A stretch of 64,000 nt of DNA from Schistosoma haematobium. Taxonomy: Eukaryota; Platyhelminthes; Trematoda; Strigeidida; Schistosomatidae. This document shows positions 19,509 to 59,189 of the stretch, one piece after another. Position 1 is the first letter of the stretch. Each line of letters starts with the position of its first letter. The stretch covers positions 56,090,465-56,154,464 of the forward strand of contig NC_067195.1 in the NCBI RefSeq assembly GCF_000699445.3, given 5' to 3'. The notes under the pieces are model-generated. The model was given only the letters and a program-made list of their open reading frames with translations. It had not been told where the DNA came from and ran no database searches. The translations under genes were made by a program, and so were the position numbers.

Positions 19509-21219
19509 TCAACTATGAAACGAAAGAATAAAAGGATGCTCTAATGCTCTGGAACAGGTAATTCGTTCTGACGGAATGTACACCAACATCTCTTTTACAA
19601 GATCGAAAGCCAGGCGCTTGTAAAGGTCAGAATTAGAAAACCAGTAGTCACCAAGAGGTTTCAGAACTCTCCTAACGTAACGAGACTCTGAAGAAGCAGG
19701 AGACCAATCTAACCGACCATGGCGGAAATATCGTCGTCGACGGGACACCTTTGTCATACATTTTGGGAGAGTCCCTAGTAAACGTTCCATCATAGCTAGG
19801 TGCTCAAGGTTATCATGTGTCATGAATAAACATTGTCCTGTCACCAATTCATACAAAATACATCCTATAGACCATACATCAGCAGATCGATCCCATCCAA
19901 GCTCCATAACAACTTCAGGAGCACGATAGTGCCGTGTCTGTATGGTAGTCGAGTGGTGATCTTCATCGAAAGTGGCTGATCCGAAGTCTATAAGCTTTAT
20001 AGATGGATTACGGATTCGCCGTACTGTTCTGCCACGATGGTTGACATAAACTTCGTCGTAAGTACCATCAACAAATAAAATATTCTCAGGTTTTAAATCT
20101 GTGTGTGTGAGCTTATTTCGATGCAAAAAGGCAACAGCCTCACACAACTGTCGGATAATTATTGCACATTGTTCAATGGTGTACGGTTCGTACTCATTTT
20201 TTTCAAGAAATGTAAAAACACTTGGACCAAGTAGAGGAAATACAATATAGAAGTGTTCATGCCATTCGAAGAAATCTATAGATGATATGCAATGGGATCG
20301 ATCTTTGGCATCTAATCTTGCAATAGTTTCTAAAACATTAACCTCGTGACGCGCAGCATCACTATAATCACTCTGAGGTTTAAGAGCCTTGACAGCAGTC
20401 AACGAATTTGTGTACAAGTCAAAACATTCAAAAACTTGCCCATAGCTACCCTCTCCTAGTATCTTCTCCACTCGAAAGCGTCGCTTGATAGTGTCACCGA
20501 CCGGTACAATAGCAGATGGTTTGCGTTTGTGATGCTCATGACTAGCTTTCCTTCGTGCTTTTTCATCGCGACGCTTTTCTTCTCTCTTCCGACGTGCTAT
20601 TTGCTTGTCATCTCTGTCAGGGAGTCTCGGAGAACCAGGAAATTGCCCATTATGTAAGTGAACGCGCATTGGATGCCCATCATGGATTTCGATACTTGGA
20701 CTACGCTGCCGTTCTCGCTTAGTTGGATGGTGAGGCGGAGCTTTGGTAGCATGACTAGGAGCGATGCCACTGCAGGAGGAACTGTTAGAACGGTCTCGAG
20801 GACGGCCCTTATCACCAGAGATACGTACTGCCTTACATGTGCTCGTTGTATGATTGAAATTAGGAACTGATACATGGGAACTATGATTCCGCCTGAACCA
20901 ACGGGGATAAAAACAATCACAGACTCAGTGACACGAAAGAAATAAAAACAAGACTATTCAAAATCAAAAGTTTATATGTGTACCTTTTACTACGTTCTGA
21001 AACACGACGTCTTTTAGGGTCTGAACAACCATAACCAGAGGATGCTTTTTCGGATGTGCTGGACCGTTTCCGATGACCAGCTGATGAAGAAGAAGTGGAA
21101 CAAACCGAATCCGATACATATCTAGTTTCTTTGTTTCTAAACAGGGAATTGAAGCAGCAACGATGATTGCTTTTAGAACGCCAACCACGGCTAGTAGACT
21201 CTCCTCGTCTCAAGACCAT
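19509..21219 (-). CDS. CLK: LAMMER/CLK dual-specificity protein kinase
   Basis: CLK (LAMMER) kinases phosphorylate SR splicing factors in nuclei and so affect splicing. Two exons fit: 21219-20984 and 20892-19509, joined across a 91-nt GT/AG intron. Together they give 539 residues, close to the family's usual length. The first roughly 215 residues are basic and Ser/Arg-rich (GHRKRSSTSEK, DPKRRRVSERSKR, a KREEKRRDEK coil), typical of CLK N-termini. The kinase domain (about 218-536) has GEGSYGQV, AVKALK, LTHTDLKPEN, DFG in LIDFGSATFD, RAPEV, and the diagnostic EHLAMMERLLG helix. All catalytic residues are present. The start is the first ATG in the open frame; two codons upstream there is only a TTG. 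It converges with MSH5, the stop codons being about 245 bases apart. Which CLK paralogue it is cannot be told here. Confidence 0.95.
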
Positions 21220-22720: not shown

Positions 22721-23587
22721 ATTGACGATACGCACTACTTACATCTATCGACGTCAGTAGCACACCGCACATACCAATCTGAAATTTGGAGTTAATGACA
22801 AATAACGGCACTGCTGACGTTCCAACTAGAGCCTTGTTTCAAAAAGCACAGAAGCCTGCGAAAACTAAAAACCATTTACTACAAAAAGTCTAAAGATAGT
22901 GATTTGAATACTTACTATTTCACTTATTTGATATACACTGAGCTGATAATAGTAACAGAGAGAGCTTTTACAAGCTGTTTAACCGTCGAAAACGTGTATC
23001 ATTTCAAGTAGATCCAGTAGCCGAACATCGTAGCTTGCCCCAGCGACTCATTACAAAAAACTCATATCCAGAATATATACCTCTCTTTTACCAGTAAAAG
23101 TGTTGCAGAATGCCATCTGATCAACGGTATTTTTGAAATTTGGTTTATGTGAGAGCGTATGTCTTTGAAAATTCGGTAAAGTGTGGTTCAAATTTAGGCC
23201 ATTATTGCTTACAAATCACGATACCAACAGATACAGCTACAATTCATACTGACACAACGTGTGTAGCAGAATTTGATGACAATTAGCAGGGGATTCAAAA
23301 CATTGTCAACCGGAAATATTACGTGTACTATTATACAAAGAGAAGAAAACCGTATTTATAGTTCAGCCGCAATAACACGTAAGAAGTTATCAGGAAGGTT
23401 GTAATTTGTTCTTGGAGTATGCTATACAATTATAAAACGTAGTTCTGCAGATATAACTATGTTTTTAAAAATATGAATTTTCACGTTGTTGGTACTGAGG
23501 ACTACAAATTTACAGTCTCTACTGACATTTATGGATTTTCTTTTGGTTATAAGTTTTATCAAGGTTGTATCGTACTATAATATTTCA
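22721..23587. other. Unassigned AT-rich DNA
   Basis: No frame, repeat or RNA gene I can support. Confidence 0.4.
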
Positions 23588-23745
23588 ATTATTTGAATTG
23601 TATTATGAACTAGGAATCCCAGAATTAACGCGATTGAATTAGGAAGTGAGACACAAGCACAAGCGAATATATTGTATTTGGAATTCGAAATCGAGCATTC
23701 AACAAGTACAAAAGAATCATTAGTTAATTCAAACACCACATCCGC
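23588..23745 (-). repeat. Flanking repeat, left copy (possible outer-element LTR piece)
   Basis: About 158 bases nearly identical to 40101-40257, and related to a third, more diverged copy at 40752-40905. The two close copies bracket the split gypsy gag and the BEL array, which suggests LTR pieces of the outer element. They abut coding sequence directly, however, so an independent repeat is possible. Confidence 0.55.
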
Positions 23746-24510: not shown

Positions 24511-24515
24511 GATAA
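24511..24515. repeat. Left target-site duplication of the BEL array
   Basis: GATAA directly precedes the terminal TGTTACG of the leftmost LTR. The same GATAA directly follows the terminal CGTATCA of the rightmost LTR at 39497-39501. Five bases suits BEL/Pao elements. Confidence 0.85.
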
Positions 24516-24922
24516 TGTTACGTCCAAGTTTTGCTCGTTCCAGTTATTGAAGTACGGACTATCCATCTACTTGCAAATTACGAACCCAAATTAACAACAG
24601 AACCAAGTTCCAATTTAGATACCAAATTTATTCGTAATTCACAAATAATCGACCAAATGTCGTTCTAACAACAATAATTATAACAATTACAAAACAAACC
24701 TTCAATTTTGTAGGTTCCCGGAGCAAAACTCTCAAATACCAAACCAAAGACAAAGAGAGCACCAAAATACCAAACCAAAGACAAACCAAAATGTTTGAAA
24801 TAATGATATAAACAAACAAGTTCAAAAGTTAGGTAAAACAATTACATCCAAAAAACACAGTAAATTATTAATGTACAATAAAAGGTTTTAATCCGCCAAA
24901 CGTCTTCAGTTCTCCCGTAACA
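24516..24922 (-). repeat. BEL LTR A (leftmost, 3' LTR of unit 1)
   Basis: 407 bases, from TGTTACG to CGTAACA, a perfect 7-base terminal inverted repeat with the TG...CA ends of LTRs. It shares four separate diagnostic variants with LTR D (near 24606, 24729, 24791 and 24828), not with B or C. Confidence 0.9.
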
Positions 24923-24931
24923 CTCCCGACC

Positions 24932-24951
24932 AAAAGAACCTTGGTTCTTTT
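24932..24951. repeat. Hairpin just inside the 3' LTR (one per unit)
   Basis: AAAAGAACC, two bases, GGTTCTTTT: a near-perfect 9-base inverted repeat lying next to the 3' LTR, where the polypurine tract is expected. The same sequence occurs next to LTRs B and C. Function unknown. Confidence 0.5.
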
Positions 24952-25079
24952 CACAGACAAATAAATAGACAACAAGAATCCAAGTATATGCATCACAAAC
25001 AATCAACAACAAACACTCAATATACCAACAATCTCGTGATCCCTAGGACTTACACCAGTACGCCTAGGGATCCGAGTAG

Positions 25080-25550
25080 CTACCTAATATCTACAACTTC
25101 TAGACGCAGTTTTCTAATATCTCTTGTCAAGATCCCTTCGCTTGTCCGCAACTCTATCGGTCTTAACCTATCACCATTAGGTATCACTTTCCTTACCAGA
25201 CCTAATAACCATTTGTCTTTCTCTAAAAACCCAGTACATGTCGTCACCAAGTTACTCTTTCCTATGTTCATCTCTGGTTGAGTCCATTTGTGTCTAAGTC
25301 GCAACAATGAAACATATTCCTTAGACAAACGTTTCCAAAATATTTGCGCCAACATAAACAACCGCAATATCAACCATACAACAAAATGCTTCATCCTCCA
25401 TAGAAGCTCATATACGCTAACGTAAACATGGATATATAAACACATATAGAGGACCAATCCATTAATTCCTTTATTTACCGCGAACTCTCTATTCTGATTC
25501 CAAATCGTAACACTGGACCCTTCTAGTTCTTTTAGAAAATGAATAACCAT
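25080..25550 (-). pseudogene. Unit 1 Pol C-terminal end (DUF5641-like)
   Basis: A 156-codon frame. Its C-terminal third (FWKRLSKEYVSLLRLRHKW, then GLVRKVIPNGDRLRPIELR) matches the conserved end of BEL/Pao polyproteins downstream of integrase. The N-terminal part is hydrophobic and unlike integrase. The frame is the same as the RNase H frame to its right, separated by a TAG stop. All three units share this structure. Confidence 0.7.
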
Positions 25551-25568
25551 AACACATGGCTTCAGGCA

Positions 25569-26084
25569 CTATTGCATATTCACACACAAACAACTACTTG
25601 AGTCCGCAGAACATAAAGCCCTTCTCCCAATCCTGACATCATCAATGTCAAACTTGACCCCTCTGGATGCAAAGTCTGCTATGCTTTCTTTAGAAGGTAC
25701 GAATCTCCATTGATCCACCTTAGTAAGACTGTGAATAGTCGAAATTCGATTTGCTATGAATGTTTTAAACTGGCTTTTCTCATTTCTAATATAGTGTAAG
25801 ACAATCATGGAATCCGTCCAAAAATTAACCTCTGCAAACTTAATATCTAATTCTGACTGCAGCTGGTATCCCATGCGAGCTGCTAAAACTGCTGCCGTAA
25901 GTTCCAAGCGCGGTATAGTTTGGACCTTCAAGGGGGCTACTCTTGCCTTAGCCGTAACAAGACGAGAACATATTTCAGTGTCAGAAATGTAAGAGCGAAC
26001 GTATGCTACTGCACCATATCCAGTTTCCGATGCATCACTGAAAATATGAAGTTCCAGGAGCGAACGATCTGATTGCAGAAACAA
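25569..26084 (-). pseudogene. Unit 1 RNase H domain
   Basis: A 171-codon frame with the BEL/Pao RNase H pattern: [17 protein letters not shown] (first Asp), [13 protein letters not shown] (Glu), [12 protein letters not shown] (Asp), ending at the [15 protein letters not shown] stretch. After that the sequence departs from the family and a TAG ends the frame. An in-frame TAG also separates it from the reverse transcriptase upstream. Both stops recur in units 2 and 3. Confidence 0.8.
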
Positions 26085-26269
26085 TACACAACGTGGAAAA
26101 CTAACGTTCTCAACACTCTGAAATCCATTTAAAATCTCTAACTAACGTTTGCTTTCCTCATTTGGAATCTCTTCGTCCCATCCTAGTCCCAATTTACCTA
26201 AACGTTGACGTAACTGCTTCATGGGAAGTACAAACGGTGCTACCAATCCCAGAGGATCGTAACGTGAGG

Positions 26270-27207
26270 CTACACTTGACAATATACTTCGCCTAGTGAG
26301 GGGCGTTTCGGTATGCGAACTTTAAATTCAAACGAATCAACCATAGTATTCCAAAATAATCCCAACGTGCGTTCCGTAGGAAGTCTTTCAAAGTCAATCT
26401 CTTCTGCTCTCTCTTCTGGATGAATTGATTCGAGAACTTGTAAACAGTTACTTATCCACTTGGTAAGTCTGAACCCACCTTTTCTGAGGAGAGAACCAAG
26501 GGCCTTTGCCAGCTCAATCGCATCCTGTACATTATTAATGGAGGCTAAATAGTCGTCGACATAGAAAATCTTATCTACGACATCCTGGATATCTTCATTA
26601 AATTCCTTACCGAATATATCTGCCGTCTTCTTAAGAGCGAAATTAGCGCAAAAGGGGAGGACACGGCTCCAAACGGATGAACTGTTAAACAATATTCCTT
26701 AGCCGTTCGTCGTATATCACCGTCTTCCCACCACAATAGACGAAATGCTCCCCTGTCTTGTCTCGGGATCATTACTTCAAGAAACATCTCTTCGATATCA
26801 GCAGCTAATGCTACGTTACCTAATCTGAATCGTAGAAGTACACCAATTAAACTATTTACAGTATTCGGTCCTCTCAAAAGCTGGTCATTAAGAGAACAAC
26901 CTTGATAGACAGCCGCACAATCAAAAACAATTCTCAATTTTCCAGGCTTTTCAGGGTTGATAACAGGATGATGAGGAATATACCAACAAACAGCATCATG
27001 GTCAAATCCCTCTTCACTAGCTTCAATGATGTAGCCCTTACTTAAATGTTTATTCATCACAACTTGATGTTTCTCCAAAAGACTGTTATCTTTCATAAAC
27101 CTCTTCCTTAAGCATTCTAGTCTGCGTTCAGCTAGTTCCAAATTATTCGGTAGCCTTGGCTTATCATACTTCCATGGTAGACCAACTTGGAAATGACCAC
27201 CCTCCAA
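26270..27207 (-). pseudogene. Unit 1 reverse transcriptase, frameshifted
   Basis: Two overlapping frames (26575-27207 and 26270-26692) together cover the palm: [18 protein letters not shown] (motif A), [10 protein letters not shown] (motif B region), [10 protein letters not shown] (catalytic YVDD). The break falls at a G run near 26655, which has one G fewer than in unit 2. A second break falls near 26300, where the RT3' frame meets a different frame at GRP/LTRR. Private changes include E-V-M in place of Q-V-K after motif A. Confidence 0.8.
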
Positions 27208-27230
27208 TCTAAACGAACTGCTAATTATTT

Positions 27231-28007
27231 CTAGAGCTTTTTATCTTCGACAGAATATCCATTACAAAACGTATCTGTATCCTCGAACTCATGATTATAT
27301 AGTCTTTCTAAATCTCGCAAAATATCATTAGTGGAACAATGACACCACTGAACTTGATGTAGAGACCTTGATACTCCCTTAGGACCTATAATCATCCAAC
27401 CAAGATGAGTACGCAGAGCAAACGGATGCTTCCTGTCCCCCAGATGTTGTTCCAGGATCCAATGTGCATCCGGAGCATCACACCCAATCAATATTCCTAC
27501 AAAATTACTTTGCAACCTCGGAAGGGTTATATCCTTTAGATGATTCCACCGTTTCAGTTGGAGTTCGTTTAAAGGTGTTGCATGATCGATCGGAAGTTTC
27601 TTGGTCGTGTAAACTTTGTTGATCCTTATAGAACCCCGTTCATCTAATGAAAATACCTCTAAATTTACCTCCAAACAATCACAATTGGTAGTTCCGTTCA
27701 CAGTCGCCACCCTTATCGAAGTCTCTTTACCTTTGATGCCCAACTGATTAATTAATTCTTCACATACAAGAGAAGTGTCAGAACCGCTATCTAGAAGTGC
27801 ATATGTTTCCAAACATCCTTTGGGACCGTATAGTCTGACTGGAACGATCCCAAAACAAACCTTTGAGGAGTTCCAATCCTTAGCCAGGGTCACCACATGG
27901 TTATCAATACTATCAATATGCAATAATGAATTATGCCTAACCTTGCAATTCTCAACGTCGCACTTGAAGCCTGAGCTGCATGTCATAGCTATGTGACCTT
28001 TCCTCAA
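27231..28007 (-). pseudogene. Unit 1 second zinc knuckle and aspartic protease
   Basis: A 258-codon frame starting inside the CX2CX4HX4C knuckle. A retropepsin-like YALLDSGSDTSLV with its catalytic Asp follows. It ends at EDKKL because a T run near 27240 is one base shorter than in unit 2. The same short run occurs in unit 3. Confidence 0.75.
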
Positions 28008-29228
28008 ACATAAGTAACATAGACCACGTTTTCTTACCTCCTGCCTCCTTTTTTACATTCATTTTTGCTAACCTTGGACAATTTGTCGCTTCATGATCAC
28101 CTACGCAGATTTCACAACGTGATACCTTGACTGAGTTATTTGAGTCTCGTCTAATTGCATGAAAGCGTGATCTCCTATCAGCTTGGCCTTCAGAATTCCT
28201 TTTACCGAACCTTGAGTTACACTGTACTAATCTACCATAACGGGTTCGGGCAATTTTGGCCCTCTCTTCTACAAAGACCACAAATTCTTCAAAGCTCGGC
28301 TCCTTCCCATGCATCATGATATTATCGGGGACTTCCACCCACTTATTCTGCAATTCTAGTGGTAGGCATGAAACTATTACCTCCAAATTAGCCGTAGAAT
28401 TAACGTCAGACATATATCCCATTTGCTTCAACGTTATACATACATTACGCAACTTAATCGCAAAGTCAGTTAATACGTCAGCCAATCCTCCGACAGGTTT
28501 ATGGTTTAATAACTCAATAATTAGTTCTCGTGCAACAAGATGTTCTTTACCAAATAAATCATACAAAATTCGTTTAGCCCTATCATAGCCCAAATCACTG
28601 GGCAAAGAAACGCAAGATTCAATTGCTGTTCTGGCCTTTCCCTTGCAATAATATAACAAATACGACAGCAATTGGCCCTTATCTGACAGTTTACTCTCTA
28701 TAAGGCTATTAAACTGACTAATGAAACGGTAATACTGACCCGGTTGCCCATCAAAGTACATCATATCGATCTTAGGTAAAACCATTTTACTAACCATTGT
28801 ATGTAACGTGTCCTTCAGCTCCCCAACCCAATCGACCTTTGAGATGTTACATACCTCCCTGAGTGATTATTACACCCAGTATCACAATCCAAATAATTTT
28901 CCACTTTAGCATTTATCCCACATTTATCTACGGGTAATCGTTCATCGTCCTCGATGGCCTTGCATTCTAGTTCAGCGATATCAACCTCTTCTTGTAGATC
29001 TAACATCTTAAGTTGCCGTTCTAATTCAAGTCTCTTCTCTAAATTCCTTTTCCTCAGTAATGCTTTATCTAACTTTAGTCTAGAAGTACTTAGCTGGCTA
29101 GAGGACATACTATTAAGACTAACGTCATCACATTTATCATCATTAACATCAGACATACCACAAACAGCTTTGGAAGTTTTACCATCCATTTCGTCATTTT
29201 CCTTCAGCCTTTTGCTCCGTGTTTCCAT
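27952..29228 (-). pseudogene. Unit 1 Gag, broken by a one-base deletion
   Basis: Two frames (28815-29228 and 27952-28797) correspond to one Gag. The N-terminal part is a charged coiled coil (KALLRKRNLEKRLELERQLK). The C-terminal part carries a DUF1759-like capsid segment (FDGQPGQYYRFISQFNSLI) and a zinc knuckle CEICVGDHEATNC. The break is a missing C near 28856, where units 2 and 3 have four. Confidence 0.8.
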
Positions 29229-29373
29229 CGTTATCGTTGTTCCAAATAATCAATTACCAAAAAATCTGAATTAATCCAAACGAAATCGACAATTAAGACC
29301 AGGAATTTGGATCCAAATTACTGACCAGACTGATCCAAGGTATAAACACAGAACCAATAATTGAAGAACTTTA

Positions 29374-29768
29374 TGTTACGTCCAAGTTTTGCTCGTTCCA
29401 GTTATTGAAGTACGGACTATCCATCTACTTGCAAATTACGAACCCAAATTAACAACAGAACCAATTTCCAATTTAGATACCAAATTTATTCGTAATTCAC
29501 AAATAATCGACCAAATGTCGTTCTAACAACAATAATTATAACAATTACAAAACAAACCTTCAATTTTGTAGGTTCCCGGAGCAAAACTCCCAAATACCAA
29601 ACCAAAGACAAAGAGAGCACCAAAATATCAAACCAAAATGTCCGAAATAATGATATAAACAAACAAGTTCAAAGGTTAAGTAAAACAATTACATCCAAAA
29701 ACACAGTAAATTATTAATGTACAATAAAAGGTTTTAATCCGCCAAACGTCTTCAGTTCTCCCGTAACA
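29374..29768 (-). repeat. BEL LTR B (shared by units 1 and 2)
   Basis: 395 bases, TGTTACG to CGTAACA. It lacks a 12-base copy of an AAACCAAAGAC-type repeat present in the other three. It shares diagnostic variants with LTR C, not with A or D. Confidence 0.9.
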
Positions 29769-29925
29769 CTCCCGACCAAAAGAACCTTGGTTCTTTTCAC
29801 AGACAAATAAATAGACAACAAGAATCCAAGTATATGCATCACAAACAATCAACAACAAACACTCAATATACCAACAATCTCGTGATCCCTAGGACTTACA
29901 CCAGTACGCCTAGGGATCCGAGTAG

Positions 29926-30930
29926 CTACCTAATATCTACAACTTCTAGACGCAGTTTTCTAATATCTCTTGTCAAGATCCCTTCGCTTGTCCGCAACTC
30001 TATCGGTCTTAACCTATCACCATTAGGTATCACTTTCCTTACCAGACCTAATAACCATTTGTCTTTCTCTAAAAACCCAGTACATGTCGTCACCAAGTTA
30101 CTCTTTCCTATGTTCATCTCTGGTTGAGTCCATTTGTGTCTAAGTCGCAACAATGAAACATATTCCTTAGACAAACGTTTCCAAAATATTTGCGCCAACA
30201 TAAACAACCGCAATATCAACCATACAACAAAATGCTTCATCCTCCATAGAAGCTCATATACGCTAACGTAAACATGGATATATAAACACATATAGAGGAC
30301 CAATCCATTAATTCCTTTATTTACCGCGAACTCTCTATTCTGATTCCAAATCGTAACACTGGACCCTTCTAGTTCTTTTAGAAAATGAATAACCATAACA
30401 CATGGCTTCAGGCACTATTGCATATTCACACACAAACAACTACTTGAGTCCGCAGAACATAAAGCCCTTCTCCCAATCCTGACATCATCAATGTCAAACT
30501 TGACCCCTCTGGATGCAAAGTCTGCTATGCTTTCTTTAGAAGGTACGAATCTCCATTGATCCACCTTAGTAAGACTGTGAATAGTCGAAATTCGATTTGC
30601 TATGAATGTTTTAAACTGGCTTTTCTCATTTCTAATATAGTGTAAGACAATCATGGAATCCGTCCAAAAATTAACCTCTGCAAACTTAATATCTAATTCT
30701 GACTGCAGCTGGTATCCCATGCGAGCTGCTAAAACTGCTGCCGTAAGTTCCAAGCGCGGTATAGTTTGGACCTTCAAGGGGGCTACTCTTGCCTTAGCCG
30801 TAACAAGACGAGAACATATTTCAGTGTCAGAAATGTAAGAGCGAACGTATGCTACTGCACCATATCCAGTTTCCGATGCATCACTGAAAATATGAAGTTC
30901 CAGGAGCGAACGATCTGATTGCAGAAACAA
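29926..30930 (-). pseudogene. Unit 2 RNase H and Pol C-terminal end
   Basis: RNase H frame 30415-30930 and C-terminal DUF5641-like frame 29926-30396, identical in the parts I compared to units 1 and 3. One frame is interrupted by the same TAG after the CLCVNMQ residues. No integrase catalytic core lies between them. Confidence 0.75.
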
Positions 30931-30987
30931 TACACAACGTGGAAAACTAACGTTCTCAACACTCTGAAATCCATTTAAAATCTCTAA

Positions 30988-31785
30988 CTAACGTTTGCTT
31001 TCCTCATTTGGAATCTCTTCGTCCCATCCTAGTCCCAATTTACCTAAACGTTGACGTAACTGCTTCATGGGAAGTACAAACGGTGCTACCAATCCCAGAG
31101 GATCGTAACGTGAGGCTACACTTGACAATATACTTCGCCTAGTGAGGGGGCGTTTCGGTATGCGAACTTTAAATTCAAACGAATCAACCATAGTATTCCA
31201 AAATAATCCCAACGTGCGTTCCGTAGGAAGTCTTTCAAAGTCAATCTCTTCTGCTCTCTCTTCTGGATGAGTTGATTCGAGAACTTGTAAACAGTTACTT
31301 ATCCACTTGGTAAGTCTGAACCCACCTTTTCTGAGGAGAGAACCAAGGGCCTTTGCCAGCTCAATCGCATCCTGTACATTATTAATGGAGGCTAAATAGT
31401 CGTCGACATAGAAAATCTTATCTACGACATCCTGGATATCTTCATTAAATTCCTTACCGAATATATCTTCCGTCTTCTTAAGAGCGAAATTAGCACAAAA
31501 GGGGGAGGACACGGCTCCAAACGGATGAACTGTTAAACAATATTCCTTAGCCGTTCGTCGTATATCACCGTCTTCCCACCACAATAGACGAAATGCTCCC
31601 CTGTCTTGTCTCGGAATCTTTACTTGAAGAAACATCTCTTCGATATCAGCAGCTAATGCTACGTTACCTAATCTGAATCGTAGAAGTACACCAATTAAAC
31701 TATTTACAGTATTCGGTCCTCTCAAAAGCTGGTCATTAAGAGAACAACCTTGATAGACAGCCGCACAATCAAAAACAATTCTCAA
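30988..31785 (-). pseudogene. Unit 2 reverse transcriptase
   Basis: A 265-codon frame covering the palm (motif [34 protein letters not shown]) and connection ([19 protein letters not shown]) of BEL/Pao Pol. It is open across the G run that breaks unit 1. It is cut from the protease part by a missing C near 31799 and ends at the shared TAG after EESKR. Confidence 0.8.
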
Positions 31786-32855
31786 TTTTCCAGGCTTTTA
31801 GGGTTGATAACAGGATGATGAGGAATATACCAACAAACAGCATCATGGTCAAATCCCTCTTCACTAGCTTCAATGATGTAGCCTTTACTTAAATGTTTAT
31901 TCATCACAACTTGATATTTCTCCAAAAGATTGTTATCTTTCATAAATCTCTTCCTTAAGCATTCTAGTCTGCGTTCAGCTAGTTCCAAATTATTCGGTAG
32001 CCTTGGTTTATCATACTTCCATGGTAGACCAACTTGGAAATGACCACCCTCCAATCTAAACGAACTGCTAACTGTTTCTAGAGCTTTTTTATCTTCGACA
32101 GAATATCCATTACGAAACGTATCTGTATCCTCGAACTCATGATTATATAGTCTTTCTAAATCTCGCAAAATATCATTAGTGGAACAATGACACCACTGAA
32201 CTTGATGTAGAGACCTTGATACTCCCTTAGGACCTATAATCATCCAACCAAGATGAGTACGCAGAGCAAACGGATGCTTCCTGTCCCCCAGATGTTGTTC
32301 CAGGATCCAATGTGCATCCGGAGCATCACACCCAATCAATATTCCTACAAAATTACTTTGCAACCTCGGAAGGGTTATGTCCTTTAGATGATTCCACCGT
32401 TTCAGTTGGAGTTCGGTTAAAGGTGTTGCATGATCGATCGGAAGTTTCTTGGTCATGTAAACTTTGTTGATCCTTATAGAACCCTGTTCATCTAATGAAA
32501 ATACCTCTAAATTTACCTCCAAACAATCACAATTGGTAGTTCCGTTCACAGTCGCCACCCTTATCGAAGTCTCTTTACCTTTGATACCCAACTGACTAAT
32601 TAATTCTTCACATACAAGAGAAGTGTCCGAACCACTACCTAGAAGTGCATATGTTTCCAAACATCCTTTGGGACCGTATAGTCTGACTGGAACGATCCCA
32701 AAACAAACCTTTGAGGAGTTCCAATCCTTAGCCAGGGTCACCACATGGTTATCAATACTATCAATATGCAATAATGAATTATGCCTAACCTTGCAATTCT
32801 CAACGTCGCACTTGAAGCCTGAGCTGCATGTCATAGCTATGTGACCTTTCCTCAA
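31782..32855 (-). pseudogene. Unit 2 protease and RT N-terminal part, active-site Asp lost
   Basis: A 357-codon frame with the second zinc knuckle, then a protease motif reading LLGSGSDTS where units 1 and 3 have LLDSGSDTS. The Asp-to-Gly change removes the retropepsin catalytic residue. The frame continues into the RT fingers because the T run near 32085 has six T, then stops at NPKSLEN through a one-base deletion. Confidence 0.8.
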
Positions 32856-34077
32856 ACATAAGTAACATAGACCACGTTTTCTTACCTCCTGCCTCCTTTT
32901 TTACATTCATTTTTGCTAACCTTGGACAATTTGTCGCTTCATGATCACCTACGCAGATTTCACAACGTGATACCTTGACTGAGTTATTTGAGTCTCGTCT
33001 AATTGCATGAAAGCGTGATCTCCTATCAGCTTGGCCTTCAGAATTCCTTTTACCGAACCTTGAGTTACACTGTACTAATCTACCATAACGGGTTCGGGCA
33101 ATTTTGGCCCTCTCTTCTACAAAGACCACAAATTCTTCAAAGCTCGGCTCCTTCCCATGCATCATGATATTATCGGGGACTTCCACCCACTTATTCTGCA
33201 ATTCTAGTGGTAGGCATGAAACTATTACCTCCAAATTAGCCGTAGAATTAACGTCAGACATATATCCCATTTGCTTCAACGTTATACATACATTACGCAA
33301 CTTAATCGCAAAGTCAGTTAATACGTCAGCCAATCCTCCGACAGGTTTATGGTTTAATAACTCAATAATTAGTTCTCGTGCAACAAGATGTTCTTTACCA
33401 AATAAATCATACAAAATTCGTTTAGCCCTATCATAGCCCAAATCACTGGGCAAAGAAACGCAAGATTCAATTGCTGTTCTGGCCTTTCCCTTGCAATAAT
33501 ATAACAAATACGACAGCAATTGGCCCTTATCTGACAGTTTACTCTCTATAAGGCTATTAAACTGACTAATGAAACGGTAATACTGACCCGGTTGCCCATC
33601 AAAGTACATCATATCGATCTTAGGTAAAACCATTTTACTAACCATTGTATGTAACGTGTCCTTCAGCTCCCCAACCCAATCGACCTTTGAGATGTTACAT
33701 ACCTCCCCTGAGTGATTATTACACCCAGTATCACAATCCAAATAATTTTCCACTTTAGCATTTATCCCACATTTATCTACGGGTAATCGTTCATCGTCCT
33801 CGATGGCCTTGCATTCTAGTTCAGCGATATCAACCTCTTCTTGTAGATCTAACATCTTAAGTTGCCGTTCTAATTCAAGTCTCTTCTCTAAATTCCTTTT
33901 CCTCAGTAATGCTTTATCTAACTTTAGTCTAGAAGTACTTAGCTGGCTAGAGGACATACTATTAAGACTAACGTCATCACATTTATCATCATTAACATCA
34001 GACATACCACAAACAGCTTTGGAAGTTTTACCATCCATTTCGTCATTTTCCTTCAGCCTTTTGCTCCGTGTTTCCAT
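32800..34077 (-). CDS. Unit 2 Gag, intact frame
   Basis: A 425-codon frame from METRSKRL. It has an acidic, coiled-coil N-terminus (about 50-95), a DUF1759-like capsid segment (about 160-330) and a CX2CX3HX4C knuckle (CEICVGDHEATNC). It ends in a read-through tail after an A6 run at the gag-pol junction, so the second knuckle is in another frame. It could be translated, but the element lacks integrase. Confidence 0.75.
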   Translation of the reverse strand: METRSKRLKENDEMDGKTSKAVCGMSDVNDDKCDDVSLNSMSSSQLSTSRLKLDKALLRKRNLEKRLELERQLKMLDLQEEVDIAELECKAIEDDERLPVDKCGINAKVENYLDCDTGCNNHSGEVCNISKVDWVGELKDTLHTMVSKMVLPKIDMMYFDGQPGQYYRFISQFNSLIESKLSDKGQLLSYLLYYCKGKARTAIESCVSLPSDLGYDRAKRILYDLFGKEHLVARELIIELLNHKPVGGLADVLTDFAIKLRNVCITLKQMGYMSDVNSTANLEVIVSCLPLELQNKWVEVPDNIMMHGKEPSFEEFVVFVEERAKIARTRYGRLVQCNSRFGKRNSEGQADRRSRFHAIRRDSNNSVKVSRCEICVGDHEATNCPRLAKMNVKKEAGGKKTWSMLLMFEERSHSYDMQLRLQVRR

Positions 34078-34223
34078 CGTTATCGTTGTTCCAAATAATC
34101 AATTACCAAAAAAATCTGAATTAATCCAAACGAAATCGACAATTAAGACCAGGAATTTGGATCCAAATTACTGACCAGACTGATCCAAGGTATAAACACA
34201 GAACCAATAATTGAAGAACTTTA

Positions 34224-34630
34224 TGTTACGTCCAAGTTTTGCTCGTTCCAGTTATTGAAGTACGGACTATCGATCTACTTGCAAATTACGAACCCAAATT
34301 AACAACAGAACCAATTTCCAATTTAGATACCAAATTTATTCGTAATTCACAAATAATCGACCAAATGTCGTTCTAACAACAATAATTATAACAATTACAA
34401 AACAAACCTTCCATTTTGTAGGTTCCCGGAGCAAAACTCCCAAATACCAAACCAAAGACAAAGAGAGCACCAAAATACCAAACCAAAGACAAACCAAAAT
34501 GTCCGAAATAATGATATAAACAAACAAGTTCAAAGGTTAAGTAAAACAATTACATCCAAAAAACACAGTAAATTATTAATGTACAATAAAAGGTTTTAAT
34601 CCGCCAAATGTCTTCAGTTCTCCCGTAACA
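34224..34630 (-). repeat. BEL LTR C (shared by units 2 and 3)
   Basis: 407 bases, TGTTACG to CGTAACA. Groups with LTR B at the four diagnostic positions and has private changes of its own (CCATTTTG near 34411, CCAAATG near 34605). Confidence 0.9.
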
Positions 34631-34787
34631 CTCCCGACCAAAAGAACCTTGGTTCTTTTCACAGACAAATAAATAGACAACAAGAATCCAAGTATATGCA
34701 TCACAAACAATCAACAACAAACACTCAATATACCAACAATCTCGTGATCCCTAGGACTTACACCAGTACGCCTAGGGATCCGAGTAG

Positions 34788-35258
34788 CTACCTAATATCT
34801 ACAACTTCTAGACGCAGTTTTCTAATATCTCTTGTCAAGATCCCTTCGCTTGTCCGCAACTCTATCGGTCTTAACCTATCACCATTAGGTATCACTTTCC
34901 TTACCAGACCTAATAACCATTTGTCTTTCTCTAAAAACCCAGTACATGTCGTCACCAAGTTACTCTTTCCTATGTTCATCTCTGGTTGAGTCCATTTGTG
35001 TCTAAGTCGCAACAATGAAACATATTCCTTAGACAAACGTTTCCAAAATATTTGCGCCAACATAAACAACCGCAATATCAACCATACAACAAAATGCTTC
35101 ATCCTCCATAGAAGCTCATATACGCTAACGTAAACATGGATATATAAACACATATAGAGGACCAATCCATTAATTCCTTTATTTACCGCGAACTCTCTAT
35201 TCTGATTCCAAATCGTAACACTGGACCCTTCTAGTTCTTTTAGAAAATGAATAACCAT
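34788..35258 (-). pseudogene. Unit 3 Pol C-terminal end (DUF5641-like)
   Basis: As unit 1: a 156-codon frame ending in the LRPIELR / LRLEVVDIR tail found at the end of BEL/Pao polyproteins, in frame with the RNase H part across a TAG. Confidence 0.7.
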
Positions 35259-35276
35259 AACACATGGCTTCAGGCA

Positions 35277-35792
35277 CTATTGCATATTCACACACAAACA
35301 ACTACTTGAGTCCGCAGAACATAAAGCCCTTCTCCCAATCCTGACATCATCAATGTCAAACTTGACCCCTCTGGATGCAAAGTCTGCTATGCTTTCTTTA
35401 GAAGGTACGAATCTCCATTGATCCACCTTAGTAAGACTGTGAATAGTCGAAATTCGATTTGCTATGAATGTTTTAAACTGGCTTTTCTCATTTCTAATAT
35501 AGTGTAAGACAATCATGGAATCCGTCCAAAAATTAACCTCTGCAAACTTAATATCTAATTCTGACTGCAGCTGGTATCCCATGCGAGCTGCTAAAACTGC
35601 TGCCGTAAGTTCCAAGCGCGGTATAGTTTGGACCTTCAAGGGGGCTACTCTTGCCTTAGCCGTAACAAGACGAGAACATATTTCAGTGTCAGAAATGTAA
35701 GAGCGAACGTATGCTACTGCACCATATCCAGTTTCCGATGCATCACTGAAAATATGAAGTTCCAGGAGCGAACGATCTGATTGCAGAAACAA
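35277..35792 (-). pseudogene. Unit 3 RNase H domain
   Basis: A 171-codon frame with the three acidic RNase H motifs ([26 protein letters not shown]). The domain's end and the whole integrase core are absent to its left. It is bounded upstream by the TAG shared with units 1 and 2. Confidence 0.8.
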
Positions 35793-35849
35793 TACACAAC
35801 GTGGAAAACTAACGTTCTCAACACTCTGAAATCCATTTAAAATCTCTAA

Positions 35850-36920
35850 CTAACGTTTGCTTTCCTCATTTGGAATCTCTTCGTCCCATCCTAGTCCCAA
35901 TTTACCTAAACGTTGACGTAACTGCTTCATGGGAAGTACAAACGGTGCTACCAATCCCAGAGGATCGTAACGTGAGGCTACACTTGACAATATACTTCGC
36001 CTAGTGAGGGGGCGTTTCGGTATGCGAACATTAAATTCAAACGAATCAACCATAGTATTCCAAAATAATCCCAACGTGCGTTCCGTAGGAAGTCTTTCAA
36101 AGTCAATCTCTTCTGCTCTCTCTTCTGGATGAGTTGATTCGAGAACTTGTAAACAGTTACTTATCCACTTGGTAAGTCTGAACCCACCTTTTCTGAGGAG
36201 AGAACCAAGGGCCTTTGCCAGCTCAATCGCATCCTGTACATTATTAATGGAGGCTAAATAGTCGTCGACATAGAAAATCTTATCTACGACATCCTGGATA
36301 TCTTCATTAAATTCCTTACCGAATATATCTTCCGTCTTCTTAAGAGCGAAATTAGCACAAAAGGGGGGGGGGGGCACGGCTCCAAACGGATGAACTGTTA
36401 AACAATATTCCTTAGCCGTTCGTCGTATATCACCGTCTTCCCACCACAATAGACGAAATGCTCCCCTGTCTTGTCTCGGAATCTTTACTTGAAGAAACAT
36501 CTCTTCGATATCAGCAGCTAATGCTACGTTACCTAATCTGAATCGTAGAAGTACACCAATTAAACTATTTCCAGTATTCGGTCCTCTCAAAAGCTGGTCA
36601 TTAAGAGAACAACCTTGATAGACAGCCGCACAATCAAAAACAATTCTCAATTTTCCAGGCTTTTCAGGGTTGATAACAGGATGATGAGGAATATACCAAC
36701 AAACAGCATCATGGTCAAATCCCTCTTCACTAGCTTCAATGATGTAGCCCTTACTTAAATGTTTATTCATCACAACTTGATGTTTCTCCAAAAGACTGTT
36801 ATCTTTCATAAACCTCTTCCTTAAGCATTCTAGTCTGCGTTCAGCTAGTTCCAAATTATTCGGTAGCCTTGGCTTATCATACTTCCATGGTAGACCAACT
36901 TGGAAATGACCACCCTCCAA
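35850..36920 (-). pseudogene. Unit 3 reverse transcriptase, with expanded G tract
   Basis: The longest RT frame of the array, 356 codons: fingers (GHFQVGLPWKYDKPRL), [13 protein letters not shown] box, and the PLGLVAPF connection. A run of 12 G at about 36363 replaces the GGGGGAGGA of unit 2. The net gain is three bases, so the frame survives and SSPF becomes PPPPF. The frame ends at the shared TAG. Confidence 0.8.
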
Positions 36921-36943
36921 TCTAAACGAACTGCTAATTATTT

Positions 36944-37795
36944 CTAGAGCTTTTTATCTTCGACAGAATATCCATTACAAAACGTATCTGTATCCTCGAA
37001 CTCATGATTATATAGTCTTTCTAAATCTCGCAAAATATCATTAGTGGAACAATGACACCACTGAACTTGATGTAGAGACCTTGATACTCCCTTAGGACCT
37101 ATAATCATCCAACCAAGATGAGTACGCAGAGCAAACGGATGCTTCCTGTCCCCCAGATGTTGTTCCAGGATCCAATGTGCATCCGGAGCATCACACCCAA
37201 TCAATATTCCTACAAAATTACTTTGCAACCTCGGAAGGGTTATGTCCTTTAGATGATTCCACCGTTTCAGTTGGAGTTCGGTTAAAGGTGTTGCATGATC
37301 GATCGGAAGTTTCTTGGTCATGTAAACTTTGTTGATCCTTATAGAACCCTGTTCATCTAATGAAAATACCTCTAAATTTACCTCCAAACATTCACAATTG
37401 GTAGTTCCGTTCACAGTCGCCACCTTTATCGAAGTCTCTTTACCTTTGATGCCCAACTGATTAATTAATTCTTCACATACAAGAGAAGTGTCAGAACCGC
37501 TATCTAGAAGTGCATATGTTTCCAAACATCCTTTGGGACCGTATAGTCTGACTGGAACGATCCCAAAACAAACCTTTGAGGAGTTCCAATCCTTAGCCAG
37601 GGTCACCACATGGTTATCAATACTATCAATATGCAATAATGAATTATGCCTAACCTTGCAATTCTCAACGTCGCACTTGAAGCCTGAGCTGCATGTCATA
37701 GCTATGTGACCTTTCCTCAAACATAAGTAACATAGACCACGTTTTCTTACCTCCTGCCTCCTTTTTTTACATTCATTTTTGCTAACCTTGGACAA
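36944..37795 (-). CDS. Unit 3 second zinc knuckle and aspartic protease
   Basis: A 283-codon frame with CYLCLRKGHIAMTC (CX2CX4HX4C) and YALLDSGSDTSLV (catalytic Asp intact). It overlaps the end of the Gag frame by 49 bases in the -1 frame, across an A7 run, so a -1 ribosomal shift could fuse it to Gag. It ends at EDKKL through a short T run shared with unit 1. Confidence 0.75.
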   Translation of the reverse strand: MSKVSKNECKKRRQEVRKRGLCYLCLRKGHIAMTCSSGFKCDVENCKVRHNSLLHIDSIDNHVVTLAKDWNSSKVCFGIVPVRLYGPKGCLETYALLDSGSDTSLVCEELINQLGIKGKETSIKVATVNGTTNCECLEVNLEVFSLDEQGSIRINKVYMTKKLPIDHATPLTELQLKRWNHLKDITLPRLQSNFVGILIGCDAPDAHWILEQHLGDRKHPFALRTHLGWMIIGPKGVSRSLHQVQWCHCSTNDILRDLERLYNHEFEDTDTFCNGYSVEDKKL

Positions 37796-38943
37796 TTTGT
37801 CGCTTCATGATCACCTACGCAGATTTCACAACGTGATACCTTGACTGAGTTATTTGAGTCTCGTCTAATTGCATGAAAGCGTGATCTCCTATCAGCTTGG
37901 CCTTCAGAATTCCTTTTACCGAACCTTGAGTTACACTGTACTAATCTACCATAACGGGTTCGGGCAATTTTGGCCCTCTCTTCTACAAAGACCACAAATT
38001 CTTCAAAGCTCGGCTCCTTCCCATGCATCATGATATTATCGGGGACTTCCACCCACTTATTCTGCAATTCTAGTGGTAGGCATGAAACTATTACCTCCAA
38101 ATTAGCCGTAGAATTAACGTCAGACATATATCCCATTTGCTTCAACGTTATACATACATTACGCAACTTAATCGCAAAGTCAGTTAATACGTCAGCCAAT
38201 CCTCCGACAGGTTTATGGTTTAATAACTCAATAATTAGTTCTCGTGCAACAAGATGTTCTTTACCAAATAAATCATACAAAATTCGTTTAGCCCTATCAT
38301 AGCCCAAATCACTGGGCAAAGAAACGCAAGATTCAATTGCTGTTCTGGCCTTTCCCTTGCAATAATATAACAAATACGACAGCAATTGGCCCTTATCTGA
38401 CAGTTTACTCTCTATAAGGCTATTAAACTGACTAATGAAACGGTAATACTGACCCGGTTGCCCATCAAAGTACATCATATCGATCTTAGGTAAAACCATG
38501 TTACTAACCATTGTATGTAACATGTCCTTCAGCTCCCCAACCCAATCGACTTTTGAGATGTTACATACCTCCCCTGAGTGATTATTACACCCAGTATCAC
38601 AATCCAAATAATTTTCCACTTTAGCATTTATCCCACATTTATCTACGGGTAATCGTTCATCGTCCTCGATGGCCTTGCATTCTAGTTCAGCGATATCAAC
38701 CTCTTCTTGTAGATCTAACATCTTAAGTTGCCGTTCTAATTCAAGTCTCTTCTCTAAATTTCTTTTCCTCAGTAATGCTTTATCTAACTTTAGTCTAGAA
38801 GTACTTAGCTGGCTAGAGGACATACTATTAAGACTAACATCATCACATTTATCATCATTAACATCAGACATACCACAAACAGCTTTGGAAGTTTTACCAT
38901 CCATTTCATCATTTTCCTTCAGCCTTTTGCTCCGTGTTTCCAT
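37747..38943 (-). CDS. Unit 3 Gag, intact frame
   Basis: A 398-codon frame from METRSKRL to NVKKGGRR. Its coiled-coil N-terminus, DUF1759-like capsid region and first zinc knuckle are as in unit 2. The stop comes five codons after the A7 run, unlike the longer tail of unit 2. As the first gene after LTR D, it would be expressed from the outer 5' LTR if that LTR is active. Confidence 0.75.
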   Translation of the reverse strand: METRSKRLKENDEMDGKTSKAVCGMSDVNDDKCDDVSLNSMSSSQLSTSRLKLDKALLRKRNLEKRLELERQLKMLDLQEEVDIAELECKAIEDDERLPVDKCGINAKVENYLDCDTGCNNHSGEVCNISKVDWVGELKDMLHTMVSNMVLPKIDMMYFDGQPGQYYRFISQFNSLIESKLSDKGQLLSYLLYYCKGKARTAIESCVSLPSDLGYDRAKRILYDLFGKEHLVARELIIELLNHKPVGGLADVLTDFAIKLRNVCITLKQMGYMSDVNSTANLEVIVSCLPLELQNKWVEVPDNIMMHGKEPSFEEFVVFVEERAKIARTRYGRLVQCNSRFGKRNSEGQADRRSRFHAIRRDSNNSVKVSRCEICVGDHEATNCPRLAKMNVKKGGRR

Positions 38944-39089
38944 CGTTATCGTTGTTCCAAATAATCAGTTACCAAAAAAATCTGAATTAATCCAAACGAA
39001 ATCGACAAATAAGACCAGGAATTTGGATCCAAATTACTGTCCAGACTGATCCAAGGTATAAACACAGAACCAATAATTGAAGAACTTTA

Positions 39090-39496
39090 TGTTGCGTCCA
39101 AGTTTTGCTCGTTCCAGTTATTGAAGTACGGACTATCCATCTACTTGCAAATTACGAACCCAAATTAACAACAGAACCAAGTTCCAATTTAGATACCAAA
39201 TTTATTCGTAATTCACAAATAATCGACCAAATGTCGTTCTAACAACAATAATTATAACAATTACAAAACAAACCTTCAATTTTGTAGGTTCCCGGAGCAA
39301 AACTCTCAAATACCAAACCAAAGACAAAGAGAGCACCAAAATACCAAACCAAAGACAAACCAAAATGTTTGAAATAATGATATAAACAAACAAGTTCAAA
39401 AGTTAGGTAAAACAATTACATCCAAAAAACACAGTAAATTATTAATGTACAATAAAAGGTTTTAATCCGCCAAACGTCTTCAGTTCTCCCGTATCA
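39090..39496 (-). repeat. BEL LTR D (rightmost, 5' LTR of the array)
   Basis: 407 bases. Its ends are TGTTGCG and CGTATCA, one change in each terminal repeat compared with A-C. It shares the four diagnostic variants with LTR A. Confidence 0.9.
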
Positions 39497-39501
39497 GATA
39501 A
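39497..39501. repeat. Right target-site duplication of the BEL array
   Basis: GATAA, matching 24511-24515. Confidence 0.85.
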
Positions 39502-40104
39502 ATGATCATCATGAATACTCGACTCAGTAGGATCAGAATTAGAAGACTTAATATTAGTTGCAGTAAGGTGAACATTAGCATTACAAACTGACTGAACTTG
39601 TCCAGTATCATGACATTTGAAGCACTTAGAATTATGAAATTGACATGAATTAGAAGAGTGAAACTTGCAACAGGACAAACACTGACCACACTTGTCCCCA
39701 TCCTCGTGAACTGCATCCAAACTCAATGAATTGTCTGCATAAGTTTGAGTATGCACTGGGTCAGGATGACGTAGTAATGTAGTGGTGTTTTTTATATCCT
39801 CATGAATCATTTTACGAGATCGTAATCCTTTACCGCATTCGAAATTTGTATACTGAACATAGTCTAGCAGCAGTTCCTTGAGAGTTGTATAAGGAAGCGA
39901 GATAGGCTTTTCCGGCATAGTCAGAATTCTTAATAAGCTGTATGCTTCTCTCCCAATGAATGTGAGGAAGTGTGCCACAATATTACCATCCTCATTATCT
40001 CCCTTGGTCATAGCCCAGATTTCGAACCTTTCAAAGTAATCTTCAAAAGCTTCCAAAGTTGAATGAATATCTAACTTTTCCATTACAGGCTTATAATGCT
40101 TCAA
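39502..40104 (-). pseudogene. Outer gypsy-like Gag, part upstream of the BEL insertion
   Basis: About 200 minus-strand codons up to the insertion, after which the frame reads into LTR D. The N-terminal part (EAFEDYFERFEIWAM, then FLTFIGREAYSLLRIL) is the capsid start typical of schistosome gypsy Gag. Later a Cys/His cluster includes CFKCHDTGQVQSVC, a CX2CX3GHX4C knuckle in which the His is Gln. The in-frame ATG is at about the eighth codon of the open stretch; upstream the frame runs into the flanking repeat. The rest of the ORF is at 23931-24510. Confidence 0.75.
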
Positions 40105-40257
40105 TTATTTGAATTGTATTATGAACTAGGAATCCCAGAATTAACGCGATTGAATTAAGAGGTGAGACACAAGCACAAGCGAATATATTGTATTTGGAAT
40201 TCGAAATCGAGCATTCAACAAGTACCAAAGAATCATTAGTTAATTCAAACACCACAC
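40101..40257 (-). repeat. Flanking repeat, right copy
   Basis: Nearly identical to 23588-23745 (a few substitutions and a one-base difference). It begins within the outer gag frame. Confidence 0.6.
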
Positions 40258-45224: not shown

Positions 45225-45682
45225 CATTTATTGAGATTAGATGGTGGTTGGAGGTAGTCGACAGGAAACCGTGGATCCGGGTTTCGTGCTATTTGGCACT
45301 CGTCAGCAAGGTGTACGTGTAATCTTGAGGGAACTGGTGTTCCCTGGCGGATTCGATCTCGTGTCACCCAGCTTCACAGTCAAAGACGTTACCACTGAGC
45401 TATCCGAGCCGCGACCGGCCAGACAGACATGACATTGATTGCCACCCAGTGATCAATCAATTGTGATTACATCTCAGTTCTACAGGAGGTCGGTCGCGGC
45501 CCGAATAGCCTAGTGTTAACGTCTTTGACTGTGAAGCTGGGTGACACGAGATCGAATCCGCCAGGGAACACCAGTTCCCTCAAGATTACACGTACACCTT
45601 GCTGACGAGTACCAAGTAGCACGAAACCCGGGTCCAGGGTTTCCTGTTGACTACCTCCAACCACCATCTAATCTCAATATAT
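45225..45682. repeat. Palindromic pair of tRNA-like SINEs
   Basis: Arms 45225-45424 and 45487-45682 are reverse complements with few mismatches around a spacer of about 60 bases. On the plus strand the right arm carries a tRNA-like head (TAGCCTAGTGTTAACG as box A, GATCGAATCC as box B). The left arm carries the same on the minus strand. Head-to-head SINE copies are the simplest reading. Confidence 0.7.
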
Positions 45683-50344: not shown

Positions 50345-50389
50345 ATCCAGTTGATGAGTCCCAAATAGGAAGAAACGCGCGTTCTGAAT
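50345..50389 (+). ncRNA. Hammerhead ribozyme of the schistosome Sm-alpha type, mutated
   Basis: Order of parts: stem I arm ATCCAG, core TTGATGAG, stem II GTCC-CAAATA-GGAA, core GAAAC, a very short GC stem III (GCGCG), cleavage triplet GTT, stem I arm CTGAAT. This is the layout of the Sm-alpha hammerhead. Changes from the active form: C to T in the first core, one stem II mismatch, one stem I mismatch, and GTT for GTC. Surrounding bases (about 50300-50410) are the rest of the repeat. Confidence 0.75.
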
Positions 50390-51226: not shown

Positions 51227-51705
51227 AGCGATCTGCTGGGATCACCGGGTCAGTAATAGTGAGGTTAGACGTAGGGTATTAGGGAATGATGGTAAATCAG
51301 TTGATGAGGTTGTGAATCTTCATCGACTGAGATGGTTGGGCTACGTTTTACGTATGCCTGAACACCGAATACCACGACATGCAATGCTAACCGGTGTTGG
51401 AGATGGTTGGAAGAAAGTTAGGGTCGGTCAAACCAAAACATGGCATTAGTGTTTGAAGTCACTAACTTCTAGTTTCAACCATGTTGGTAGATGCAGACTA
51501 CTTGGTTGGGGTCCGCATGACTATCCTAAGCAGTGGTTGGAGACTGTTGGACAAGGCTCAGAATCGACCAAAATGGCGTCGGTGTATACACTCTCTGTCT
51601 TCCCTTAAACTAAGAGATTAAAATCACTTCATATCTTTCTTTCTACGAACTAATTCTTTCTTCCTGTACTATATCCTTATTGCAATCTTTCTTTTATATA
51701 TTACC
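51227..51705 (+). mobile_element. RTE element, 3'-end partial copy
   Basis: From ATCTGCTGGG (51231) on, it is the same as the last 470 or so bases of each full unit, including the TAG that ends the RT frame and the pyrimidine-rich tail. It is a severely 5'-truncated copy at the head of the array. Confidence 0.9.
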
Positions 51706-58652: not shown

Positions 58653-58662
58653 ATATTACCAC
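58653..58662. repeat. Right target-site duplication of the RTE array
   Basis: ATATTACCAC, matching 51217-51226. Confidence 0.65.
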
Positions 58663-59035: not shown

Positions 59036-59160
59036 GAGACCATGAGTCAATTGAAGCTAGACCATCGTGGAAAATCTAGAGGCACTGGACGGCCGTTTCA
59101 TCCTATTGTGGGACTCCTCAGCAGTGCGCATCCACGATCTCGTTGCTCAATTGTGTGGAG
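59036..59160 (-). repeat. SINE body, minus strand, with intact-looking hammerhead
   Basis: Reverse complement of the SINE body seen at 59280-59370. The tRNA head is missing or beyond recognition. The ribozyme part is listed separately. Confidence 0.75.
59082..59127 (-). ncRNA. Hammerhead ribozyme, apparently intact
   Basis: Read on the minus strand: stem I arm GCACTG, core CTGAGGAG, stem II (GTCC / GGAT with one G-T pair around a CACAATA loop), core GAAA, self-complementary stem III CGGCCG, triplet GTC, closing arm CAGTGC. All nucleotides of the CUGANGA and GAAA cores and the GUC site are present, so self-cleavage is plausible. Confidence 0.75.
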
Positions 59161-59189
59161 TGGTTAAAGTTAGACATTAACACCGTTGG

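Follow-up and report, generated by a model that had tools for sequence, protein, structure and literature searches.

A four-LTR BEL/Pao array with mosaic units at a single insertion site in Schistosoma haematobium

How does a retrotransposon locus with a single target-site duplication come to hold four long terminal repeats (LTRs) and three internal regions? This question is raised by a BEL/Pao array in the genome of Schistosoma haematobium, found in a window of 64,000 nucleotides (assembly GCF_000699445.3, contig NC_067195.1, positions 56,090,465 to 56,154,464 of the forward strand). On the minus strand of window positions 24511-39501, the order is LTR-internal-LTR-internal-LTR-internal-LTR, i.e., four LTRs (A to D) and three internal regions (I1 to I3) in register (Table 1). 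The sequence GATAA precedes LTR A and follows LTR D only, and the inner LTRs B and C are bordered in register by internal sequence. A preliminary description, made from the sequence alone, had given this layout in one orientation with GATAA on the outer sides only, and it was confirmed to the base. Nested insertion of a second element was rejected, as the inner LTRs have no target-site duplication of their own and sit in register. Assignment to BEL/Pao rests on LTRs with TG...CA ends, the 5-bp target duplication, and Gag DUF1759, reverse transcriptase and Peptidase_A17 in this order on one strand. Having n LTRs and n-1 internal regions in register and in one orientation, with an outer-only target duplication, the array is a new instance of an already known kind of structure, the multi-LTR tandem. 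However, units arising by simple duplication, which are expected of such tandems but do not strictly define them, were not found, since shared-derived states conflict between the units and between the LTRs.

The LTRs were compared with each other and with 36 other LTRs of the family (the best 40 of 412 first-look candidates were scored, minus the four of the window). A and D differ by 2 substitutions, B and C by 4 (plus 2 indels), A and B by 7, both A and C and B and D by 9, and C and D by 11. LTR B is 12 bp shorter, with one 11-column gap adjoining a mismatch and one 1-bp gap. Six columns (92, 217, 280, 281, 312, 317) separate A+D from B+C; all of them lie within the four motifs for which the preliminary description had reported this split, and the grouping persists at these columns in the alignment. 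A and D share 217T, 280T, 281T and 317G, which are present in 0, 1, 0 and 0 of the 36 other LTRs, whereas B and C carry the family-wide state at these columns, making A/D derived. B and C in turn share 92T (2/36) and 312G (0/36). Columns 49 and 386 place A+B+D against C: 49C and 386C occur in none of the other LTRs, and C has G at column 49 like 35 of the 36 and T at column 386 like 23 of them. In a maximum-likelihood tree of the 40 LTRs, A and D were paired at 100/98 support (bootstrap not fully settled), while B and C did not resolve into a pair but stood in a fork with L009, L011 and others. The best tree did not unite the four array LTRs in one clade (2 changes), as 23% of 200 bootstrap trees did; a single origin of all four may thus stay compatible with the tree. 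The nearest outside LTR to each of them is L009, with 7 differences from A, 4 from both B and C, and 9 from D. The divergence between A and D is within the range of six other LTR pairs (2, 0, 0, 0, 2, 2), taken as two-LTR elements by position.

One target duplication, two differences and the tree support A and D as the founding LTR pair, which is the simplest reading and the one first proposed. Since B and C keep the family-wide state at four sites, they need a second template or a conversion donor and do not follow from A/D by mutation alone; the earlier idea of a second, related template for B and C therefore held. The simplest reading is that the middle of both came from another template and that B is a hybrid, being A/D-like at columns 49 and 386. 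As a unit, B+C is weaker than A+D, with two shared derived sites and no grouping of its own in the tree, so that the pairing put forward previously stands for A+D and only in part for B+C. The preliminary description had suggested looking for single copies with the B/C variants; an outside copy with the B/C or the A/D haplotype was not present among the 36 LTRs. The only two private changes of LTR D are its fifth and its third-last base, i.e., both ends of the inverted termini are altered, which may be due to chance, integration or assembly.

The internal regions are patchworks as well. They differ at 38 substitution sites (gapped columns excluded, i.e., 10 indel columns), and the odd one out is I1 at 10, I2 at 13 and I3 at 15 sites. 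No pair wins, and duplication of a whole unit, with I2 copied from I1 or I3, was rejected on this ground. Along the alignment, the site labels form 10 runs compared to 26 on average when shuffled (0 of 20000 shuffles as low). Columns 1-1399 and 2875-3870 contain no substitution among the three, and the variable blocks span 53-542 columns. Sites were polarised against 12 outside copies, 9 to 12 of which had data per site, except for site 4411 with five; an outside stretch with only 71 bp of internal sequence (L048) was excluded from the site tables. Earlier tables used seven and six outside copies, while the final polarisation and the private-state counts used twelve. Derived states are shared by I2+I3 at three sites (1503, 1727, 2691), by I1+I3 at five (2152, 2308, 2822, 2864, 2870) and by I1+I2 at three (3871, 4210, 4380); at the remaining 27 sites, the state is private to the odd unit (16), both states occur outside (10) or neither does (1). 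Because the three pair groupings conflict and occupy separate blocks, the units are mosaics. A polarisation at the protein level using Schistosoma homologues, now superseded by the DNA copies, polarised no site oppositely; at sites 1701, 2350, 2721 and 2832, the DNA copies have both states or neither, and the protein relatives tend towards one of them. Simple duplication of a single element with later point mutations was rejected given the conflicting shared-derived states in LTRs and internal regions and the clustered blocks, in agreement with the preliminary description.

States common to all three units and absent outside occur at 26 of 2883 agreeing columns in the invariant blocks versus 2 of 1529 in the variable blocks (descriptive P 0.0011). 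From these private-state counts, we read the invariant blocks as probably reflecting recent common ancestry of the units and the variable blocks as probably of separate ancestry. The best single breakpoint falls between columns 2721 and 2762: to its left, I1 is odd at 10 of 14 non-I2 sites, to its right I3 is odd at 11 of 11, and the 4 violations among 25 sites (descriptive P 0.004) are all on the left side and represent states private to I3. Reversing the order leaves 10 violations.

As for the physical event behind the mosaic with its conflicting shared-derived states, we infer unequal exchange and gene conversion at one resident insertion as the best fit, with about an even chance of being correct; this and the weights of the competing explanations are judgements. 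A single insertion of one BEL/Pao element without an integrase core, presumably mobilised in trans, produced GATAA and the founding LTRs A and D, as the target duplication and the A-D similarity show. Homologous exchange at this insertion would then have multiplied the element in register, giving three units with shared LTRs; the simplest route would be unequal crossing-over between copies of the locus. Recombination or gene conversion with at least one related, distinct template would have put foreign tracts into the middles of B and C and into internal blocks of each unit; for human LTRs, a published study describes conversion tracts of up to 450 bp (PMC4921805).

The preliminary description had instead suggested that a concatemer or circle of another copy recombined into a resident element. 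Spelled out, a resident element R, made up of A, the left of I1, the right of I3 and D, would have received a related extrachromosomal copy S, either a circle or linear complementary DNA (cDNA), by homologous recombination near internal columns 2721-2762, with S supplying the segment right I1, B, I2, C, left I3 as a dimer or as a monomer duplicated later. The single breakpoint, in the observed order and with exceptions private to I3, fits this arrangement, B and C need a second template, and Tf2 of Schizosaccharomyces pombe is described as entering the genome mostly by cDNA recombination with resident copies (PMC7175516). However, it follows that unequal crossing-over in a three-LTR ancestor gives the same single-breakpoint pattern, because I2 then joins the left of I3 to the right of I1 and B and C copy one middle LTR. 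Moreover, 49C and 386C are common to B and A/D and not to C, B and C differ by the substitutions and indels given above, the two I2 tracts with their five I1+I3 shared-derived sites are left unexplained, R and S would lack any substitution over 1399 and 996 columns, and no S-type copy is among the outside LTRs. Added conversion is needed for the I2 tracts and the A/D-like edges of B under the exchange and the circle or cDNA versions alike. Since neither version alone explains these features, exchange plus conversion at the locus is preferred, and the circle or cDNA route is regarded as rather unlikely. Thus, the founding pair and the second template of the earlier interpretation are supported, and the breakpoint in the internal regions also separates the A side of I1 and the D side of I3 from the remainder; the circle or concatemer is not borne out, the same facts being explained by unequal exchange and conversion.

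Several points weigh against exchange plus conversion. A donor with the B/C or odd-block haplotypes was not found among the 36 outside LTRs and the 12 outside internal copies, about seven separate tracts are required by our own count, and both P values above are descriptive only, as block limits and breakpoint were picked post hoc and the sites are clustered. In addition, short reads from earlier data sets were used in polishing the assembly, Shae.V3 (PMC8846543). A rival view takes the number of units or the patchwork, in whole or in part, as an artefact of assembly or polishing. Shae.V3 is described as a Canu assembly of Oxford Nanopore reads, polished using medaka, pilon and HyPo with the earlier short-read libraries, and its Hi-C DNA came from 100 adults (PMC8846543). 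The variable blocks reach down to short-read scale, several differences between units are homopolymer indels, and short-read polishing of a repeat could shift tracts between units. On the other hand, every unit has its own variants, the target duplication matches at the two outer ends, and none of the outside copies with data has any of the 16 odd-private or 11 pair-derived states, so that reads of the sampled outside copies could not have supplied them. An artefact is considered improbable.

It has also to be asked whether three recombinant sibling cDNAs, formed by template switching between two packaged RNAs, could have been joined end to end and integrated once as a trimer. Yeast Ty multimers are a parallel for such an integration. 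The single target duplication encloses the whole array, the mosaic blocks look like template switching, the long substitution-free blocks imply close siblings, and concatenated cDNA via template switching is discussed for Cassandra (PMC7215508). Nevertheless, A and D would come from different molecules and still share six rare states, and the agreement of an LTR with its adjoining internal blocks is not predicted; we regard a trimer as very improbable.

The founding element proposed under exchange plus conversion would have lacked an integrase core. In the internal regions, the domain order is gag (DUF1759), protease region, reverse transcriptase, Peptidase_A17 and DUF5641, which agrees with the BEL/Pao order described for Sinbad (PMC554778). 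In-frame stops occur in pol at the same two places in all three units, and I1 and I3 have further frame breaks of their own relative to I2. One open reading frame (ORF) of the array has Schistosoma-named homologues at 66-91% identity among the 120 of 708 proteins listed. Integrase zinc-binding or core domains were not found at E up to 1 in the five main ORFs of I2 and three ORFs of I3, nor between the Peptidase_A17 and DUF5641 ORFs of I2, and no integrase was found at E 0.001 in the listed ORFs of the window, the I1 ORFs and 60-aa ORFs being outside the scan at E 1. At the integrase place, family copy L049 (C7) matches Integrase_H2C2 (E 5e-7) and, weakly and below the cutoff, rve (E 0.006), and the array units are shorter by about 1 kb. 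The C4 copy (L045/L046) is also short there, and an additional 6 kb or so of sequence separates its halves. The array units are deletion derivatives of the family without autonomy. An insertion that left a target duplication then implies integrase supplied in trans or loss of the domain after insertion; the former would be likelier, because the C4 copy has the same shortening. In six other copies (L047, L051, L052, L055, L057, L059), two matches overlap by 14 bp (I2 positions 697-710), and the sequence between them is about 400 bp longer than in the array units. It looks as if the integrase region was lost stepwise, by deletion between short direct repeats. A bolder proposal, which we consider a long shot, is an integrase-deleted animal BEL/Pao lineage whose (template-switched) cDNA or circles recombine homologously with resident copies as its means of propagation. 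If true, this would be a Tf2-like cycle in which one locus accumulates mosaic units; no such description for BEL/Pao was found in the open-licence literature searched.

Elsewhere in the genome, 9 of the 36 other LTRs are solo LTRs with a 5-bp target duplication (determined by script, one-base offset allowed), which shows that LTR-LTR recombination occurs in this family and counts in favour of exchange at the array. No other locus with three or more LTRs by position was detected among these 36. An exact 20-base LTR pattern matched 0 stretches in viral contigs and 0 in GTDB contigs.

Table 1. Features of the BEL/Pao array in window coordinates; columns refer to the LTR or internal alignments.
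Feature	Position	Length	Strand	Remarks
Target-site duplication GATAA, left	24511-24515		.	Outer side of LTR A
LTR A, outer; 3' LTR in the element's sense	24516-24922	407 bp	-	49C, 217T, 280T, 281T, 317G, 386C rare or absent in 36 other LTRs
Internal I1	24923-29373	4451 bp	-	Odd one out at columns 1503-1727, 1850-1861, 2615-2721
LTR B, inner	29374-29768	395 bp	-	A/D-like at columns 49, 386; C-like at 92-317
Internal I2	29769-34223	4455 bp	-	Foreign-looking tracts at columns 2120-2350, 2822-2874
C-terminal ORF of I2	29929-30414		-	DUF5641
Peptidase_A17 (Pao) ORF of I2	30418-30987		-	Bordered on each side by an in-frame stop
Reverse transcriptase ORF of I2	30991-31797		-	RVT_1, running into Peptidase_A17
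Protease-region ORF of I2	31785-32900		-	Aspartyl protease match below curated cutoff; I3 counterpart E 4e-4, also below
gag ORF of I2	32803-34098		-	DUF1759
LTR C, inner	34224-34630	407 bp	-	Common family states at columns 49 and 386
Internal I3	34631-39089	4459 bp	-	Odd one out at columns 3871-4411
LTR D, outer; 5' LTR in the element's sense	39090-39496	407 bp	-	Private changes at columns 5, 405
Target-site duplication GATAA, right	39497-39501		.	Outer side of LTR D

The array is flanked at a distance by a 165-bp direct repeat (97%; 23576-23740 and 40092-40256). These repeats and the sequence between them look like an older LTR element hosting the BEL insertion, with a gag-like zinc-knuckle motif guessed by eye. 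A second tandem array at 51231-58660 has 2318-bp units, three full and one partial, which are 99.9-100% identical with no mismatches. Each full unit contains a 330-aa ORF and, on the strand opposite to it, an Rfam mir-3492 match; the first of these ORFs matches RVT_1 and, under the cutoff, DUF6451. The array may represent a non-LTR element fragment that was duplicated in tandem very recently, or else an assembly repeat. Five Rfam matches to hammerhead type I ribozymes were seen on both strands (45268-45640, 50345-50389, 59082-59328); one pair lies in an inverted repeat at 45.2-45.7 kb, and the other three are on either side of the 51-58 kb array. Finally, a CLK/LAMMER-type protein kinase ORF, unbroken over 386 codons, is located on the minus strand at 19509-20669; it is 98% identical to a protein cluster of 540 aa that bears the name Schistosoma rodhaini.

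At this one insertion, the LTR pair by which it can be dated (A/D) is distinguishable from LTRs that do not date it (B/C), and the units of the array record exchange between copies. This advises caution when ages or numbers of such elements are derived from adjacent LTR pairs. The locus is also a concrete case for distinguishing between unequal exchange, gene conversion and cDNA recombination.

A BEL/Pao array of this kind was not reported in the literature searched (open-licence papers, mostly at listing level), but its components have parallels in known systems. Sinbad, a BEL/Pao element of Schistosoma mansoni compared here by layout and lengths from its description, has 386-bp LTRs starting with TG and ending with CA and the order gag, protease, reverse transcriptase and ribonuclease H; in contrast to the 4.45-kb array units without an integrase core in a four-LTR tandem, it encodes an integrase, and its two LTRs enclose an internal region of 5.5 kb (PMC554778). 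Tf2 of S. pombe would work alike if cDNA recombined into a resident copy, and is a mechanistic parallel only, in a different element and host (PMC7175516). Same-orientation LTRs with shared inner LTRs are described for plant multi-LTR elements, namely Wukong of maize (PMC4528315) as well as Cassandra and Pbr118 of pear (PMC4668562). Among 89 intact Wukong elements, eight have three and five have four LTRs, most multi-LTR cases with a target duplication (PMC4528315); the counts of multi-LTR elements stated in PMC4668562 are 257 in pear, 14 in rice, 1 in Arabidopsis and 2 in Triticeae, and at least 4600 three-LTR structures of BARE1 in barley are cited in PMC7215508. Wukong, Cassandra and Pbr118 are miniature and without genes, whereas the present array consists of mosaic units of a gene-bearing BEL/Pao element from an animal. 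HERV-K108 at 7p22.1 differs in host (human) and in having two units and three LTRs, but it is likewise a gene-bearing tandem that shares one middle LTR, for which provirus, solo, tandem and empty alleles are listed (PMC4149278).

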